The translations under genes were made by a program, and so were the position numbers. The notes beneath the pieces are model-generated. The model did no database searches. It saw only the letters and a program-made list of their open reading frames with translations, and was not told the DNA's origin. Below, piece after piece: positions 1 to 34,324 of a stretch of DNA of 34,324 nucleotides; positions within the stretch are counted from its first letter, which is position 1, and every line of letters begins with the position of its first letter. Source of the stretch: a virus; the IMG/VR virus record IMGVR_UViG_3300043436_002588, positions 1 through 34,324 of that record. The stretch is one strand, 5' to 3'.

Positions 1-50
1 TTATCTTTTAACGGGCAATTAAAACCACTACATTTTGTTATATCACTCAT
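1..50 (-). CDS. Start of the spanin-like lipoprotein gene (partial, cut by window edge)
   Basis: The ATG lies at 50 on the minus strand. The 16 codons that fit match the beginning of the full gene at 33475-34023, with Cys-7 and Cys-12 of its Cys-rich head visible. One base (position 12, C instead of A) differs from the other copy and does not change the visible Pro-Leu-Lys-Asp reading. The gene overlaps the stop of the 49-aa gene (TGA at 47-49) as ATGA, so the two are probably translationally coupled. Confidence 0.8.
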   Translation of the reverse strand, partial: MSDITKCSGFNCPLKD

Positions 51-196
51 TGTAATTCATCTTTAATATTTTGATAATCATAACCAGCACTAATTAATAA
101 GTTAGTTATAATTTCTATTATTTCAACTGTTGTGATGTCGTCATAGTCACATTCAAAACTATGCTTTTTTCCGTATGCTTCGATTTGTATTTTCAT
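47..196 (-). CDS. 49-aa hypothetical phage protein, allele 1
   Basis: Small acidic ORF starting MKIQIEAYGKK and ending in KDELQ, with no recognised family. It sits 2 bases after the metallophosphoesterase stop and overlaps the spanin-like gene by ATGA. A second allele is at 34020-34169. The alleles differ near the N-terminus (Tyr-Gly versus His-Lys at residues 8-9, Ser/Thr at 13, Ile/Leu at 22) and are identical from residue 23 to the end. That pattern, with an intact frame in both, supports a real coding gene. Function unknown. Confidence 0.7.
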   Translation of the reverse strand: MKIQIEAYGKKHSFECDYDDITTVEIIEIITNLLISAGYDYQNIKDELQ

Positions 197-198
197 AA

Positions 199-1344
199 TT
201 AAAATATAAAGGTTAAACGTTGTATTTGTCCGTGTTCTTTATCGTGTATATATCCCTCAACAGCTTTAGGTGCATGCTGATAACCGTTACGATGATGCCA
301 ACTATCTGTACCGCTTGGACTTCTTAACGTTTCGACGCAAACGCCCATATAATCTTTGCTAACTTTATGGTGTAAATGATGTGTATAAATATATTTATGT
401 TTACAATTTACCCAGTCTTTACTTTCGTGTGCCATTAATAATGGTAAATTCTCTGCTCTTGCACCATCTCCGTGAGTTGTGCCTATTAAATTTTTACCAT
501 AAGTAAAATATTTTCGGTGTGCTATTGTAGTATCAAATGTTACATTTTTGCAGTCTTTAAAATGTGTTTCAATTACTTGTGCTAAAAAGAAACCATTTGT
601 ATAATCGTGATTACTTGGATTGTAAACCACGTGAACATCAGCTACACTCATAAGAATTTCAATAATATCTACATATAATTGTTTAGCTATTAAAAAATTA
701 CTATGCCACATTCCATCTGTATCTTGTGGAGTTCCGCTTGTAGTTGTTCTTTTCGTATTATCAATATGTAAAATATCGTTTCCTATGACAAATAAAACCT
801 TATCTATTGTGGTAGTATCAATTTCATTTAATATGCCTTTACAACCTTTTAAAACACGTTGTACAGCTATTTGATTATTATATGTTTCCCCAACTTCAAA
901 AGCACTGCATAATTTACCTATGTGAATGTCTGCAGGATCAAATACAAATAGCCTTTTATTTTCGTTTACTTCTCTTTTAAGTTGCGGATATTTAGGCACG
1001 TAATTTTTTAAATCTTCAATTACTTCTTTTGCTAAATTTTCAAAATTAAATTCTTGCGGTGCTTTGTATAATGGATTCGTAACTCTTACACTTTCATTCT
1101 TTGTCTTTAGCCATAGCATTGGAGTTGATTCTGGACTTATTCCGACATTACTACAAGCATCTAAAATACCTTTGTTTTTTTCCTTGTATCTTTTAATATA
1201 AGTTCTAAACAAATCAACATCAATATTCTCAACTTTAGAAACATTTTCTTTTAAAATTGTTTTAGCTATTTGCGTATTGCTATCGATAGTTTGTATTAGT
1301 TCAAATATTTCTGAATCGTATTGCGACCATTTTGAATTTGCCAT
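199..1344 (-). CDS. Calcineurin-like metallophosphoesterase with N-terminal HTH-like region
   Basis: 381 aa. Residues 1-60 look like a helix-turn-helix segment. A metallophosphoesterase domain follows, with its metal-binding motifs in order: DPADIHIGK (about 137), GNDILH (about 190), SNHD (about 245), THGD (about 291) and THHLHH (about 321). Family members hydrolyse phosphomono- or diesters using two metals; phage versions are often annotated as DNA repair exonuclease-like, but the substrate cannot be read from the sequence. It is the first gene after a terminator and has its own TACTTTTG promoter at 1368-1375, so it heads a short unit with the 49-aa and spanin-like genes. The last residues differ between this copy and the partial one at 34173-34324. 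Confidence 0.85.
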   Translation of the reverse strand: MANSKWSQYDSEIFELIQTIDSNTQIAKTILKENVSKVENIDVDLFRTYIKRYKEKNKGILDACSNVGISPESTPMLWLKTKNESVRVTNPLYKAPQEFNFENLAKEVIEDLKNYVPKYPQLKREVNENKRLFVFDPADIHIGKLCSAFEVGETYNNQIAVQRVLKGCKGILNEIDTTTIDKVLFVIGNDILHIDNTKRTTTSGTPQDTDGMWHSNFLIAKQLYVDIIEILMSVADVHVVYNPSNHDYTNGFFLAQVIETHFKDCKNVTFDTTIAHRKYFTYGKNLIGTTHGDGARAENLPLLMAHESKDWVNCKHKYIYTHHLHHKVSKDYMGVCVETLRSPSGTDSWHHRNGYQHAPKAVEGYIHDKEHGQIQRLTFIF

Positions 1345-4376: not shown

Positions 4377-5980
4377 TACTTCAATTTAAAATAGTTATTG
4401 CTTGCTTGTGCAGGTTGTGCTACTAAAGGGTCATTCTCTTGCCATTTTGCTTTAGGTCTGTCAGCAGGATCTAAAGCTAAAATCATTTTTCGTGCCTCGT
4501 TGACGCTTAATGAATTATTACCTTTTCGTAAGTAAATTTTACGCATCCAAAAATGTTTACAATTCACACCGCCTTTGTACAACCATATTGAATAAGTATC
4601 AGCACCTTCTGCTCCTAATCCAGGATTAACAACTTTACTGCTTGCTAATTCAATATCTTCTTTTCTATAAACCTTATTAGCTTTTATCATTTTATTGCAA
4701 AATTCTCTTTGTCCTTCAGGATTTCCACCATACGAATAACGAATTTTAAAAAGGCTTGTATCTTGCTCACTTGTTACATTTGGAAAAGAACTCGGAACTT
4801 TTGCTAATTGCAAATGCATTTCGCTAATCGTAGGCTCTCCACTCATTGGAACTTCATCAATCAATTCCCATTCCTCATCATTAATTTCTTCACCTAAATT
4901 AATAAGTTCATCAGCAATTAAATCAGTTCCCTCTTTTTTTTTTGATAAACTTAATGCAGTTTCAGGAGTTTGCTTTTGTCTCAAACTTAAAAATTCCAAT
5001 CCGCTTAACCCTTTTACAAACTCTATTGCGTCAATAATGTTTTCTTGAATAGGTTGTATAACATTTAAATACGTTTCGTTAAAAGCGGTTTCAATTTCTT
5101 CTGCATTAGAGCTGAATCCTGTACTTTTTGTAATTCCTAAAATTGCACCCGATACAACTTTGTGGGCGATACAAATTTTATTTTGAGCTTCCTGAGTTAA
5201 AAAGTCATATTGTTTGTGTGCATCGCTTACTTGTAATGCTGAAATTGTAGTTTCGCTTTCTTTATTATCATTAAAAGACAAAAGGAATTTACCCGCATTT
5301 GTGCTACCTGTTAATTGGTTTCTAATTTGTCGGCTAAATTTATTTAAATCTTGCTCGCTTTCAGGTTTGCCACCATTCACATTTATAACGTGTCCGAAAG
5401 ACATACCATTTTTTATGTGGTTAACGTAGTAGTTTGCCAATTCGCTCTCTACTTCGCAATATGGTAACGCTGAAATATAAGAAGGATTACCAAAATAGAA
5501 CTGACCTACATTATTAGCCTTAATTACAAAGACTTGGTTTTCGGTTTTCTTACCAAATCCATAAGTCGGTATTCTTTTAGGTAGGTATTTTTGTTGGTCA
5601 TTCCAATCAAAGCAAAACCAATACGCTCTTATTTCCCCATCTTCAGCTTTGTTTGGTAAAAGTTTATTCTTTTCAATATGGTAAAGATTACCTTTTGGAG
5701 TTACTTCAAATGATGCCTCACCAAATAATACCATATCAAAACAAATCTTTCTTAAATCCGTTTTAGATATAAAATTTTGTTGAATGTTAAAACCTAATCC
5801 ATATATATAACGTGCATACGAATCGATAATAGCGGAGTTTGTAGGACTTCCGTAATAACTCGCTATAATGTCTTTATACATTTGGTTATTTTCCCCATTC
5901 ATAACAAAGTCTTTGTTTGGACTTTCTTTAATTTCGGGTCTAATATAATCCTTTGCTAATTTTAAAACTTCTAATTTCAT
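4376..5980 (-). CDS. Portal protein
   Basis: 534 aa. The N-terminal half has NSAIIDSYARYIYGLGFN, a typical portal signature where the clip/wing begins, followed by a long helical stem region and AHKVVSGAILGI around residue 270. The last 130 residues (YSYGGNPEGQREFCNKM, then VNPGLGAEGADTYSIWLYKGG, NCKHFWMRK) look like an added C-terminal domain seen in Bacteroidota phage portals, which may be a metal-bound fold carrying Cys and His. It overlaps the 84-aa gene upstream (ATGA) and the connector downstream. Placed at the far end from terminase, which is unusual. Confidence 0.8.
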   Translation of the reverse strand: MKLEVLKLAKDYIRPEIKESPNKDFVMNGENNQMYKDIIASYYGSPTNSAIIDSYARYIYGLGFNIQQNFISKTDLRKICFDMVLFGEASFEVTPKGNLYHIEKNKLLPNKAEDGEIRAYWFCFDWNDQQKYLPKRIPTYGFGKKTENQVFVIKANNVGQFYFGNPSYISALPYCEVESELANYYVNHIKNGMSFGHVINVNGGKPESEQDLNKFSRQIRNQLTGSTNAGKFLLSFNDNKESETTISALQVSDAHKQYDFLTQEAQNKICIAHKVVSGAILGITKSTGFSSNAEEIETAFNETYLNVIQPIQENIIDAIEFVKGLSGLEFLSLRQKQTPETALSLSKKKEGTDLIADELINLGEEINDEEWELIDEVPMSGEPTISEMHLQLAKVPSSFPNVTSEQDTSLFKIRYSYGGNPEGQREFCNKMIKANKVYRKEDIELASSKVVNPGLGAEGADTYSIWLYKGGVNCKHFWMRKIYLRKGNNSLSVNEARKMILALDPADRPKAKWQENDPLVAQPAQASNNYFKLK

Positions 5981-9142: not shown

Positions 9143-9195
9143 ATTTATTTAACGAAAAAAAAAGTTTATTTTACATATTGAATTGTAAAAATGTT

Positions 9196-9203
9196 TATAT
9201 TTG
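9196..9203 (+). promoter_or_regulatory. TATATTTG promoter of the lipoprotein unit
   Basis: An exact TATATTTG box lies on the plus strand; the expected transcript start (about 9209) coincides with the first base of stem S1 of the leader. A TTG occurs 15 bases upstream (9178-9180), shorter than the usual -33 spacing. Confidence 0.65.
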
Positions 9204-9208
9204 TGCCA

Positions 9209-9266
9209 TCGCTACAACTAAAAATATTAATCCCTGACATTTGTAGCGAGTGTTGGGGATTTTTTT
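9209..9266 (+). promoter_or_regulatory. Interleaved two-stem leader RNA (pseudoknot/terminator), member A
   Basis: S1 is TCGCTACAA (9209-9217) with TTGTAGCGA (9241-9249), 9 bp. S2 is AATCCC (9229-9234) with GGGATT (9256-9261), followed by a T-run. The order S1-S2-S1'-S2' is that of an H-type pseudoknot, or of two competing hairpins of which the second is an intrinsic terminator. The ATG is at 9279. The linker before S2 reads AAAAATATTA, shared with members B-D. Confidence 0.7.
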
Positions 9267-9278
9267 AAACTATTTAAT

Positions 9279-9659
9279 ATGAAAAAAGTATTATTAATTT
9301 TAGGGTTGTCTATTTCGTTATTATCTTGTAATGATTACCAAAGACAACAAAGCCAATTAGATGCAGAAAGTGAAGGTAAATCTATTTTACTAAAAGCTGA
9401 AAGCGAAAAGAAAGCCGACATTGAACAAGCAAAGGCTAACTACGAATCTGCAAAATTAGACGCTCTTACAAAAATTGAAAAAGCAAAAGCAGAAAGCCAA
9501 TCTATTTTAATGAAAGCCGAAAGTCAAGCAAAAGCAAACAGATTATTAAACGAATCAATTACACCTGAAATTTTAGAGTTTAATAAAATAAATCGTTGGA
9601 ATGGTAAATTACCAACTACTACTTTAGGTAATCAAGGTGCAATTATAAATTTAAAATAA
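9279..9659 (+). CDS. Phage lipoprotein with a prohibitin/SPFH-like C-terminal tail
   Basis: 126 aa. The signal peptide MKKVLLILGLSISLLSC has a lipobox with Cys-17. Residues 25-95 are an Ala/Glu/Lys-rich helix with an internal repeat (AESEGKSILLKAES and AESQSILMKAES). The end, LNESITPEILEFNKINRWNGKLPTTT (read here in pieces), matches the characteristic tail of bacterial prohibitin-family (SPFH) proteins: ITPEILEF, then NRWNGKLP. The SPFH domain itself is absent. It lies opposite in strand to the surrounding late genes, with its own promoter, leader and terminator. An inferred role is membrane-level modification of the host, such as superinfection exclusion or interference with host SPFH complexes. 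Confidence 0.8.
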   Translation: MKKVLLILGLSISLLSCNDYQRQQSQLDAESEGKSILLKAESEKKADIEQAKANYESAKLDALTKIEKAKAESQSILMKAESQAKANRLLNESITPEILEFNKINRWNGKLPTTTLGNQGAIINLK

Positions 9660-9754
9660 TGAAAATACTTGTTCTTACATTAGTAGGTATTCCTTTATTG
9701 ATTATTTTCTATTTAGGAATAATTCGTTTAATAAAAGAGTTTTTTAAAAAATAA
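9659..9754 (+). CDS. 31-aa single-span membrane protein
   Basis: MKILVLTLVGIPLLIIFYLG then a basic end (RLIKEFFKK): one membrane helix with a positive, presumably cytoplasmic tail. The ATG shares a base with the lipoprotein stop (TAATG), so the two are translated together and perhaps act together at the envelope. Too short for ordinary ORF callers. No family recognised. Confidence 0.65.
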   Translation: MKILVLTLVGIPLLIIFYLGIIRLIKEFFKK

Positions 9755-19785: not shown

Positions 19786-19851
19786 AAATCAGGAATAGCC
19801 AAACCTGATTTGATTATCAATCTTATAAGCCATTATAAGAACGTTGCTATT
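19786..19851 (-). promoter_or_regulatory. Interleaved two-stem leader RNA, member E (late operon)
   Basis: On the minus strand S1 is AATAGC with GCTATT (19846-19851 with 19794-19799), 6 bp. S2 is AAATCAGG with CCTGATTT (19804-19811 with 19786-19793), 8 bp. Between them sits a perfect 8-bp hairpin (TCTTATAA/TTATAAGA, 19821-19840). The order is S1, hairpin, S2, S1', S2'. The U-run after S2' is weak here. Confidence 0.65.
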
Positions 19852-22429: not shown

Positions 22430-22510
22430 AAAATAAAAACCACCAAGTCAAAAGGTCGTCGTCTTTATCATTGGTGGAATTTGTATAATGTTTTTAATTG
22501 TAGCGACGAC
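22430..22510 (-). promoter_or_regulatory. Interleaved two-stem leader RNA, member D
   Basis: On the minus strand S1 is GTCGTCG (22504-22510) with CGACGAC (22455-22461), 7 bp. S2 is CCACCAA (22471-22477) with TTGGTGG (22440-22446), 7 bp, followed by TTTTTATTTT and then the ATG at 22429. The linker contains AAAAACATTA. Topology S1-S2-S1'-S2' matches members A-C. Confidence 0.72.
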
Positions 22511-22520
22511 TCTACAAATG

Positions 22521-25511: not shown

Positions 25512-26180
25512 TTAAAAGTCTAAATCTTCTTCGTCTATTGGTTCATCAACAACAGGCTCTGCTTTTACTAAATACGTTTTTAAATACGTTTCTAATACAT
25601 TAAACGCTTCGTCTGCTAAATCTGCTTCAGGATCTGAAATTGAACGCTCAAATTTAAAGTCAGGCGTATAGAATTTAACTGCACCCTTTTTGCCATCAAC
25701 TACGCTTTCAACAATTACCCACTCATCAGGAAGTCTTTGTCTTGTTTTGGCTGTAAATTCTCCCCACTTTTGAACTGCTGCACCTTTTAACTGAATGTTT
25801 GCAAGTGAACCATCTTCTAACATAATGTAAATAGATTTTACATAATGCCCTCCAGCAGCTTGAACTTTCTCTTTAATATCTTTGTAAAGTCCTTTTGCAA
25901 TTTCGTTACCCTTAAAAGGTTTAACAGTCATTGGTTCTTTAGAAATAAATTTCACTTCATTTGAAAAAATACCGCTTGAAGTTGCATCGTTCCATCCCTT
26001 AATTGCGTGAAGTTCGTCTAATACTAAAAATTTAAAAGGTAGCGGAACTAAAACATTTTCTTGTTTTTCTTTGTCATAGTAAGAGAAACATTTGTCATTT
26101 GATTTCCAGTCAAAGAATTTATTTGCTGGATTTGATTGTGGTTGAGAAAATGCACCACGTCTGTTTGAAGTTGTACTCAT
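25512..26180 (-). CDS. Putative single-stranded DNA-binding protein
   Basis: 222 aa. The protein is globular for about 195 residues, with aromatic and basic positions (NKFFDWKSNDKCFSYYDK, then YVKSIYIMLEDGSL) and ends in an acidic tail DEPIDEEDLDF. Such a tail is typical of phage and bacterial SSBs that recruit partners. The family is common near replication genes in Bacteroidota phages. OB-fold is inferred, not demonstrated. Preceded by pseudoknot-like leader F and its own promoter. Confidence 0.65.
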   Translation of the reverse strand: MSTTSNRRGAFSQPQSNPANKFFDWKSNDKCFSYYDKEKQENVLVPLPFKFLVLDELHAIKGWNDATSSGIFSNEVKFISKEPMTVKPFKGNEIAKGLYKDIKEKVQAAGGHYVKSIYIMLEDGSLANIQLKGAAVQKWGEFTAKTRQRLPDEWVIVESVVDGKKGAVKFYTPDFKFERSISDPEADLADEAFNVLETYLKTYLVKAEPVVDEPIDEEDLDF

Positions 26181-26198: not shown

Positions 26199-26230
26199 GG
26201 TCTGAAATTAAGATGCTCAAACCTTGCATC
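26199..26230 (-). promoter_or_regulatory. Compact H-type pseudoknot leader, member F (SSB-like gene)
   Basis: On the minus strand S1 GATGC (26226-26230) pairs with GCATC (26212-26216). S2 GGTTTGA (26217-26223) pairs with TCAGACC (26199-26205), with one G-U. Loops are 2, 0 and 6 bases, a classical H-type geometry. The start codon is 18 bases downstream. T4 gene 32, another phage SSB gene, is autoregulated through a leader pseudoknot; similar control is possible here. Confidence 0.6.
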
Positions 26231-29282: not shown

Positions 29283-29364
29283 TGCCTACCTGTATTTGCA
29301 TCGGCTTCGACATCGATACTCCTACAAATAGGCTAATGTTTTTAAGTTACTAATTTGTCGAAGC
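29283..29364 (-). promoter_or_regulatory. Interleaved two-stem leader RNA, member C
   Basis: On the minus strand S1 GCTTCGAC (29357-29364) pairs with GTCGAAGC (29304-29311), 8 bp. S2 GCCTA (29330-29334 region) pairs with TAGGC (29284-29288), 5 bp, followed by ATTTTTATTTT. The linker contains AAAAACATTA. S2 and its tail have nearly the same sequence as in member B. Confidence 0.7.
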
Positions 29365-30548: not shown

Positions 30549-30631
30549 TGCCTACCATATTTCAAACGCATCTCAACTCGTTTTCCATATAATAGGCTAT
30601 AATATTTTAATTGTTACTTTAATTGAGATGC
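30549..30631 (-). promoter_or_regulatory. Interleaved two-stem leader RNA, member B
   Basis: On the minus strand S1 GCATCTCAA (30623-30631) pairs with TTGAGATGC (30568-30576), 9 bp. S2 GCCTA (30594-30598 region) pairs with TAGGC (30550-30554), 5 bp, followed by ATTTTTTTT and the ATG at 30534. The linker reads AAAATATTA. Confidence 0.72.
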
Positions 30632-33500: not shown

Positions 33501-34023
33501 TCCAATTCAATACAAAGAGCAGAACAAATAGTATTCCAATAAGCCACATAAACCGATTTGCGACTATTTTAATAGTTTCTGAATAGTCAACCTCTTTATC
33601 TTTTTTTTCTTCTTTAAAATCAACGTTTTGCTTTTCCTTAATTACTTCTTTAGAATTGTTATAAATAACCCTTGTATTGTAGATTGTATCTTTTCCTAAA
33701 AGAATAGGTTTGTCCAAATTAACAGGCTCTAAAGTAAACGAGTTACTAAACTTTGTTATATCGGTTTGTGTTTCACTTTTAACTTCCGTTTCTGAACTTG
33801 ACTTTTTAACGCTTCCGCAAGAAAATAAAGTTAAAACTAAACAACCTAAAATTAATTTTGCTAAAGAGCTTTTAGATTCATCGCCTAAAAAAAACTCACA
33901 TTTCCCATCTTTATAAGGTACTTCTGTAAAATAACTTTGCCACATTCCGTCTATTGCTTTATATCTTTTGCAATTATCTTTTAAAGGGCAATTAAAACCA
34001 CTACATTTTGTTATATCACTCAT
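33475..34023 (-). CDS. Cys-rich head fused to a u-spanin-like lipoprotein
   Basis: 182 aa. Residues 1-50 carry Cys-7, 12, 18 and 42 (KCSGFNCPLKDNCKRY, DGKCEFF), a known small phage Cys-rich type. Residues 54-69 are a lipoprotein signal ending in LFSC (Cys-69), and residues about 153-173 are a membrane span (MWLIGILFVLLFVLNWI). A lipoprotein signal plus C-terminal transmembrane helix is the layout of unimolecular spanins such as phage T1 gp11, which fuse the two membranes at lysis. The signal is internal and no in-frame ATG precedes it, so this may be two genes joined by a one-base change. Confidence 0.65.
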   Translation of the reverse strand: MSDITKCSGFNCPLKDNCKRYKAIDGMWQSYFTEVPYKDGKCEFFLGDESKSSLAKLILGCLVLTLFSCGSVKKSSSETEVKSETQTDITKFSNSFTLEPVNLDKPILLGKDTIYNTRVIYNNSKEVIKEKQNVDFKEEKKDKEVDYSETIKIVANRFMWLIGILFVLLFVLNWIKNKTTLL

Positions 34024-34169
34024 TGTAATTCATCTTTAATATTTTGATAATCATAACCAGCACTAATTAATAAGTTAGTTATAATTTCAATTATTTCAAC
34101 TGTTGTTAAGTCGTCATAGTCACATTCAAATGTGTGCTTTTTTTTGTGTGCTTCGATTTGTATTTTCAT
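34020..34169 (-). CDS. 49-aa hypothetical phage protein, allele 2
   Basis: Same protein as 47-196 with about five residue changes near its N-terminus (MKIQIEAHKKKHTFECDY). Overlaps the spanin-like gene by ATGA. Differences between the alleles show that the protein tolerates change in its first 22 residues and is conserved after that. Confidence 0.7.
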   Translation of the reverse strand: MKIQIEAHKKKHTFECDYDDLTTVEIIEIITNLLISAGYDYQNIKDELQ

Positions 34170-34172
34170 AAT

Positions 34173-34324
34173 TTAAAATATATGTGTTATTCTCATAATT
34201 TGTCCGTGTTCTTTATCGTGTATATATCCCTCAACAGCTTTAGGTGCATGCTGATAACCGTTACGATGATGCCAACTATCTGTACCGCTTGGACTTCTTA
34301 ACGTTTCGACGCAAACGCCCATAT
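34173..34324 (-). CDS. C-terminal part of the metallophosphoesterase, allele 2 (cut by window edge)
   Basis: The stop at 34173-34175 and about 50 codons are present. The final residues read QIMRITHIF instead of QIQRLTFIF in the other copy; the rest is identical. The protein continues past the window edge. Confidence 0.75.
   Translation of the reverse strand, partial: MGVCVETLRSPSGTDSWHHRNGYQHAPKAVEGYIHDKEHGQIMRITHIF

Follow-up and report, generated by a model that had tools for sequence, protein, structure and literature searches.

Kissing-terminator leaders, a candidate family of cis-acting attenuators upstream of genes of Bacteroidota viruses

The window examined here, the whole 34,324-nucleotide stretch of a virus record (IMG/VR IMGVR_UViG_3300043436_002588), contains a short leader that raises the question of whether an RNA can control the gene behind it by pairing its own 5' end with the loop of its own terminator-like hairpin. 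This leader (leader A, 9196-9266, +) precedes a gene encoding a lipoprotein-like protein (9279-9659, +; PHROG 200, E 5e-15), whose ATG at 9279 lies 12 nt past it. It begins with the sequence motif TAnnTTTG as a -7 promoter element, TATATTTG (9196-9203, +), which we take to be of the Bacteroidota promoter type. Five nucleotides past this element is S1, TCGCTACAA (9209-9217, +), expected from its position to form the 5' end of the transcript. The 5' arm (9229-9240, +) and 3' arm (9250-9261, +) of a hairpin, P2 (also called S2), enclose S1', TTGTAGCGA (9241-9249, +), and a U-run (9260-9266, +) follows P2 directly. S1' is the exact reverse complement of S1 and makes up the whole loop, so that the 9-bp pairing with the S2 loop proposed in an earlier note on this DNA is borne out. 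Leader A has no P1 hairpin around S1, unlike the usual members of the family described below.

The region 9200-9275 folds with a z score of -3.4, and an equally good fold was found in 1 of 200 shuffled sequences. P2 has 12 bp, or 15 bp when S1' is partly consumed. When energies were computed for nested folds, with pseudoknot energy outside the computation, the nascent leader preceding the P2 3' arm was predicted to fold as S1 (-9.4 kcal/mol), and the complete leader to prefer the 15-bp P2 (-17.7) over S1 alone (-9.9). The suggestion that S1 folds first agrees with these predictions, in which P2 forms afterwards; both a knot and a competition are possible for leader A, in which full S1 and full P2 together leave next to no connecting loop. 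The neighbours of leader A are structural genes (portal, tape measure, terminase) on the other strand; thus, its placement in a late-gene region is correct for leader A itself, but the family is mostly found upstream of DNA-metabolism genes. From its sequence, it is plausible that the gene under leader A is switchable.

The window was scanned on both strands for an S1 of 8 or more nucleotides with its complement inside a terminator-like hairpin, which gave three matches: leader A, 30631 (-) and 29364 (-). A shorter S1 was found at 22510 (-; 7 bp) and at 19851 (-; 6 bp). The second leader (22433-22520, -) has S1 GTCGTCG in the P1 loop (22510-22504) and S1' in the P2 loop (22461-22455), matches model R1 (E 5.6e-15), and is followed by a NUMOD4/HNH endonuclease gene. 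The third (29284-29364, -; S1 29364-29356, S1' 29312-29304) lies upstream of a helicase gene of which the longest open reading frame has its ATG at S1'; a helicase start at about 29265 is likelier. The fourth (30550-30631, -; S1 30631-30623, S1' 30576-30568) precedes an endonuclease VII-like gene. A weak fifth member (19786-19851, -) upstream of an Arc-like gene has the S1 AATAGC, identical in three relatives, across which the block TAGCAACGTTCTTAT is almost invariant; this conservation beyond pairing suggests some additional role. Leader A is the sole plus-strand member, as the earlier note had it, but of the six members counted there only these four strong and one weak could be found, with no sixth of the same design in the window.

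The 5' untranslated region at 26230 (-), considered as a sixth leader, was ruled out as a pseudoknot of a different fold. It is a compact H-type pseudoknot (26230-26199, -; GATGC-AA-GGTTTG-A-GCATC-TTAATTT-CAGACC) in front of a PHROG 6706 gene (25512-26180). Pairing was preserved in all of 12 distinct relatives with 8 loop/partner combinations in the viral loci gathered for comparison, found by a search that selected for pairing, and the pseudoknot looks like a second conserved element of untranslated regions, perhaps an autoregulatory one. The ends of the window (1-350 and 33974-34324) are repeats of about 350 nt in the virus record, with 93-95% rather than 100% identity.

To place these leaders, viral loci were gathered via helicase (80 of 595 kept), portal (69) and primase (44) proteins, and further loci were added via pattern searches and the lipoprotein. 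A scan requiring a promoter, S1 of at least 8 nt and its complement in a hairpin with at least 6 pairs, with no T-run condition, yielded 41 distinct matches versus 2 in the direct, 0 in the reversed and 8 in the complement control; a T-run was present in 32 of the 41. A scan of 314 loci (3.35 Mb) requiring a T-run, an ATG and S1 of at least 7 nt yielded 85 distinct leaders versus 2, 1 and 9 in the same controls. The complement control is inflated because the S1 words of several true leaders are almost the same when read backwards: eight of its nine matches are sequences listed as true leaders, and one, in locus L029, is another sequence. The merged family comprises 135 leaders and 31 downstream gene clusters among 527 loci, counts in which related phages are not independent samples. 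A literature search, conducted with most subscription journals beyond its reach, found no description of the motif or of leaders in Flavobacterium phages; these kissing-terminator leaders, from phages of Flavobacterium-like bacteria, are apparently a large family so far undescribed.

No leader in the window and 16 loci had a match at Rfam gathering scores. The sole match beside them was the DUF805b RNA (RF02914), a separate short element that the leaders themselves do not match; in L029 it lies at 4962-4994, directly after the leader U-run and before the gene, so that two elements stand in series. A match to RF02074 at 9180-9290, obtained with a relaxed threshold (E 0.044; 24.8 bits versus a gathering score of 55), was attributed to chance. 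A ligand-sensing riboswitch built on the kissing or pseudoknot fold would be consistent with the 5' untranslated position, the pseudoknot and the overlapping terminator-like hairpin, but with no matching Rfam class, and with sequence conservation that varies by leader type, unlike what a common binding pocket might be expected to show, such a function is quite improbable.

The pairing of S1 with S1' was examined by loop-blind searches with three patterns, in which the flanks of the P2 stem were fixed, as taken from leaders originally found via S1, and the loop letters were left unconstrained. Among distinct promoter-bearing matches, a perfect S1 of at least 7 bp was found in 34 of 36 for the HNH type (10 loop sequences) and in all 43 for the AATGAAACC type (17 loop sequences), and a perfect S1 of that length in 19 of 20 for the leader-A type, CCCTGACA-loop-TGTTGGGG (9 loop sequences). 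The direct-repeat control gave 0/36, 0/43 and 1/20, and swapping loops between leaders gave means of 9.3, 8.6 and 6.1 with maxima of 17, 15 and 12, in the same order of types. The three promoter-bearing misses are all in coding-looking sequence, and promoterless matches had S1 in 1/90, 6/18 and 3/74 cases (direct control 2, 1 and 8). Nineteen leaders with the A-type P2 carry seven different S1 pairings, ten of them the pairing of leader A itself and nine others, in which S1 is seen within the first hairpin; thus, the architecture of leader A is under covariation, though its close relatives barely vary.

In an alignment of 25 HNH-type leaders, 98.9% of the cells are paired and 15 of 22 pairs have changed on both sides. 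The covariation of 0.469, compared with 0.116 for shuffled alignments, was reached by none of 500 shuffles, and is abolished when the partner is slid by 1-3 columns. All four helices (P1, the loop-loop helix, P2 and the upper P2 stem) co-vary, with changes on both sides of 3/4 pairs in P1, 5/7 in the loop helix and 6/7 in P2. The HNH type thus has two complementary, co-varying hairpin loops, as a kissing-loop interaction does, and leader A is an H-type variant without P1. The S1:S1' pairing can be considered real because it has been kept through many sequence changes, and from these comparisons the leader structure as a whole is near certain to be so. The anatomy described for leader A (S1 at the 5' end, S1' in the terminator loop, and a knot or competition between them) thus recurs with covariation in many phages, including those that share its P2 stem.

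The same covariation weighs on the idea that the leader is a small RNA gene, of which termination at P2 would yield an RNA of about 80 nt acting in trans via S1 or S1' on other leaders or on the host. The leaders do have their own promoter and a terminator-like end, and TCGCTACAA, the S1 of leader A, is also present inside the 22510 leader; but S1 co-varies with the S1' of the same leader, and cross-complementarity is not enriched within loci, which makes this reading very improbable. Orthogonality of S1 words within a phage was also considered and set aside: 3 of 52 within-locus pairs share at least 5 nt, compared with 8.3% between loci.

A typical leader is about 55-100 nt long and consists, in order, of TAnnTTTG, S1 in the P1 loop, an A/T-rich linker, P2 with S1' as its loop, the U-run and the ATG. 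S1 begins about 10 nt past TAnnTTTG in leaders with P1 and 4-5 nt past it in those without. As S1 is usually itself a hairpin loop, the usual member would form a kissing complex; S1' is flanked in relatives by connectors of about 9 and 8 nt (medians), and S1:S1' and P2 can coexist in such a complex because of these connectors. Some leaders (in L002, L007, L045, L208 and L297) have an apparent additional hairpin between P1 and P2. P2 itself contains a short purine-rich internal loop, possibly with sheared G-A pairs, below the upper stem. The sequence of this internal loop is conserved within leader types and differs between them, a feature that bears in two ways on antitermination of the put kind, in which the folded leader would bind the transcribing polymerase and cause it to ignore P2 and later terminators. 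Conservation within each type, together with the occurrence of two hairpins directly after promoters of DNA-metabolism genes in several copies per phage, is what a polymerase-binding RNA would predict; yet no polymerase-contact sequence is conserved across types, and the leader terminates in a terminator-like U-run of its own, so that antitermination of this kind is improbable.

The U-run is tied to P2. Of the 96 loop-blind members, 95 have five or more T in the best 8-nt stretch that follows P2, compared with 60 of 482 plain promoters at the corresponding place, and the U-run stays by P2 in leaders of which the ATG is 42-46 nt away (L003, L021, L040 and L066). These observations bear on an alternative in which the 5' end of the mRNA would be protected by the kissing complex and initiation restricted for as long as P2 stays closed, with the U-run a mere unstructured landing site. 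P2 ends 9-21 nt from the ATG in most leaders, within reach of an initiating ribosome, and a hairpin so near the ATG could equally affect translation or the decay of the mRNA. S1 or P1 occupies the predicted 5' end, and T4-type phages control homing endonuclease genes with hairpins at the ribosome site (PMC2988022). However, a U-run kept at P2 even where the ATG is distant is a terminator trait, superfluous under such protection, which we therefore consider rather unlikely.

Thus, as in attenuators, there is a stable hairpin with an immediate U-run in the 5' leader. The median energies, again those of nested folds, are -16.5 kcal/mol for P2 alone and -10.4 for S1:S1'. S1 pairs with the P2 loop and not with an arm, and so is not a mutually exclusive antiterminator. 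Nor is there a general antiterminator competing for a P2 arm: among 135 truncated leaders, the probability that the P2 5' arm pairs upstream exceeds 0.5 in only 28%. Judged by these features, the leader may work like an attenuator, though not one of classical design.

The most economical and hence preferred account is a cis attenuator, an intrinsic terminator of which the loop would be captured by the 5' end of its own transcript, to which we assign a probability of roughly 0.55. Transcription would start at the Bacteroidota-type promoter, leaving S1 at the 5' end, usually in the P1 loop; polymerase would next make P2, the intrinsic-terminator hairpin with its U-run; and S1 would capture S1' before the P2 3' arm exits polymerase, by kissing loops or, without P1 as in leader A, by an H-type knot. 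Capture would most likely tune whether or when P2 closes, and with it the choice of polymerase between stopping at the U-run and continuing into the gene, which begins about 9-20 nt further on; the pairing probably helps to decide whether the downstream gene is read. The promoter motif, the U-run at P2 and the downstream genes are seen in the genomes, and S1:S1', P1 and P2 are seen by covariation; from them we infer the start site, actual termination, and the effect of capture on termination with its direction and trigger. Because S1:S1' is strong enough to form always, a switch would need a factor as yet unseen, and the poor joint fit of S1 and full P2 counts against attenuation in leader A. 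To our knowledge, little is known of gene control in Bacteroidota phages. A tentative extension of the attenuator, about which we are more doubtful than confident, is that it acts as a self-contained timer, in which a terminator loop read by its own 5' end via freely changing kissing loops would delay replication, recombination and endonuclease genes during infection by Bacteroidota viruses.

The downstream genes were compared with PHROGs. The largest clusters encode HNH endonucleases (32), helicases (15), small open reading frames (12) and primases (12). Twenty-three clusters were searched by a representative or the window member, eight small or single clusters being left out; 12 of the 23 matched 'DNA, RNA and nucleotide metabolism', four matched 'other' (two DNA methyltransferases, a nucleotide kinase-like protein and the lipoprotein), three matched unknown families only, four had no match, and in none was head or tail the best match. 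Thus, the lipoprotein gene is an exception in the family, and A-type leaders are also found upstream of other genes (L085, L108, L466 and L503). In one helicase family with 64 distinct upstream regions, 14 have a leader between promoter and ATG (control 0/64), an arrangement in favour of attenuation, and the lack of a detected leader in the other 50 counts against it; the leader is apparently acquired or lost whole.

The cultured phages snusmum6-1 and hattifnatt9-1 have three leaders each, and FCV-1 of F. columnare has one found by the scan (35886) and one by the model (40362; E 0.094), in which the S1 pairing GTAGTGC/GCACTAC is seen. The leaders also bear on start-site annotation: the annotated helicase start of snusmum6-1 (9791) falls within a leader with S1 at 9728. 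The idea of a chromosomal RNA was rejected: among 395 Bacteroidota genomes, model R1, with strict filters and for the HNH type only, had a match in a single one (G001), which had been chosen beforehand for already holding a match. In the first 50 kb of crAss001, a single 6-nt match without a good T-run was ascribed to chance. Compact and widespread, the leaders offer an RNA element amenable to testing, of which dozens of covarying versions occur naturally, several in cultured Flavobacterium phages; they also make testable the fate of a terminator when upstream RNA of the same transcript ties up its loop.

Several known systems share parts of this design. Attenuators based on intrinsic terminators likewise have a promoter-proximal hairpin and U-run just upstream of a gene, but there an antiterminator steals an arm, whereas here the loop is the target of the 5' end, and in most members this pairing is compatible with the hairpin. 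In attenuation of the pT181 repC type, a separate antisense RNA decides the fate of a leader terminator by loop-loop pairing in trans; leader terminator and loop-loop pairing are shared, but in the present family the partner is the 5' end of the same transcript. The put sites of phage HK022 are two hairpins by early-gene promoters, present in more than one copy per genome, as the leaders are, but they are not known to have either a U-run of their own or loop-loop pairing, both of which the leaders have. Finally, T4-type phages likewise have RNA structures at genes for HNH and GIY-YIG endonucleases, which these structures control: the hairpins mask the ribosome site when transcription comes from promoters further upstream (PMC2988022). 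The leaders differ from them in having a promoter of their own as well as a kissing loop and U-run, and are also found upstream of helicase, primase and methyltransferase genes.
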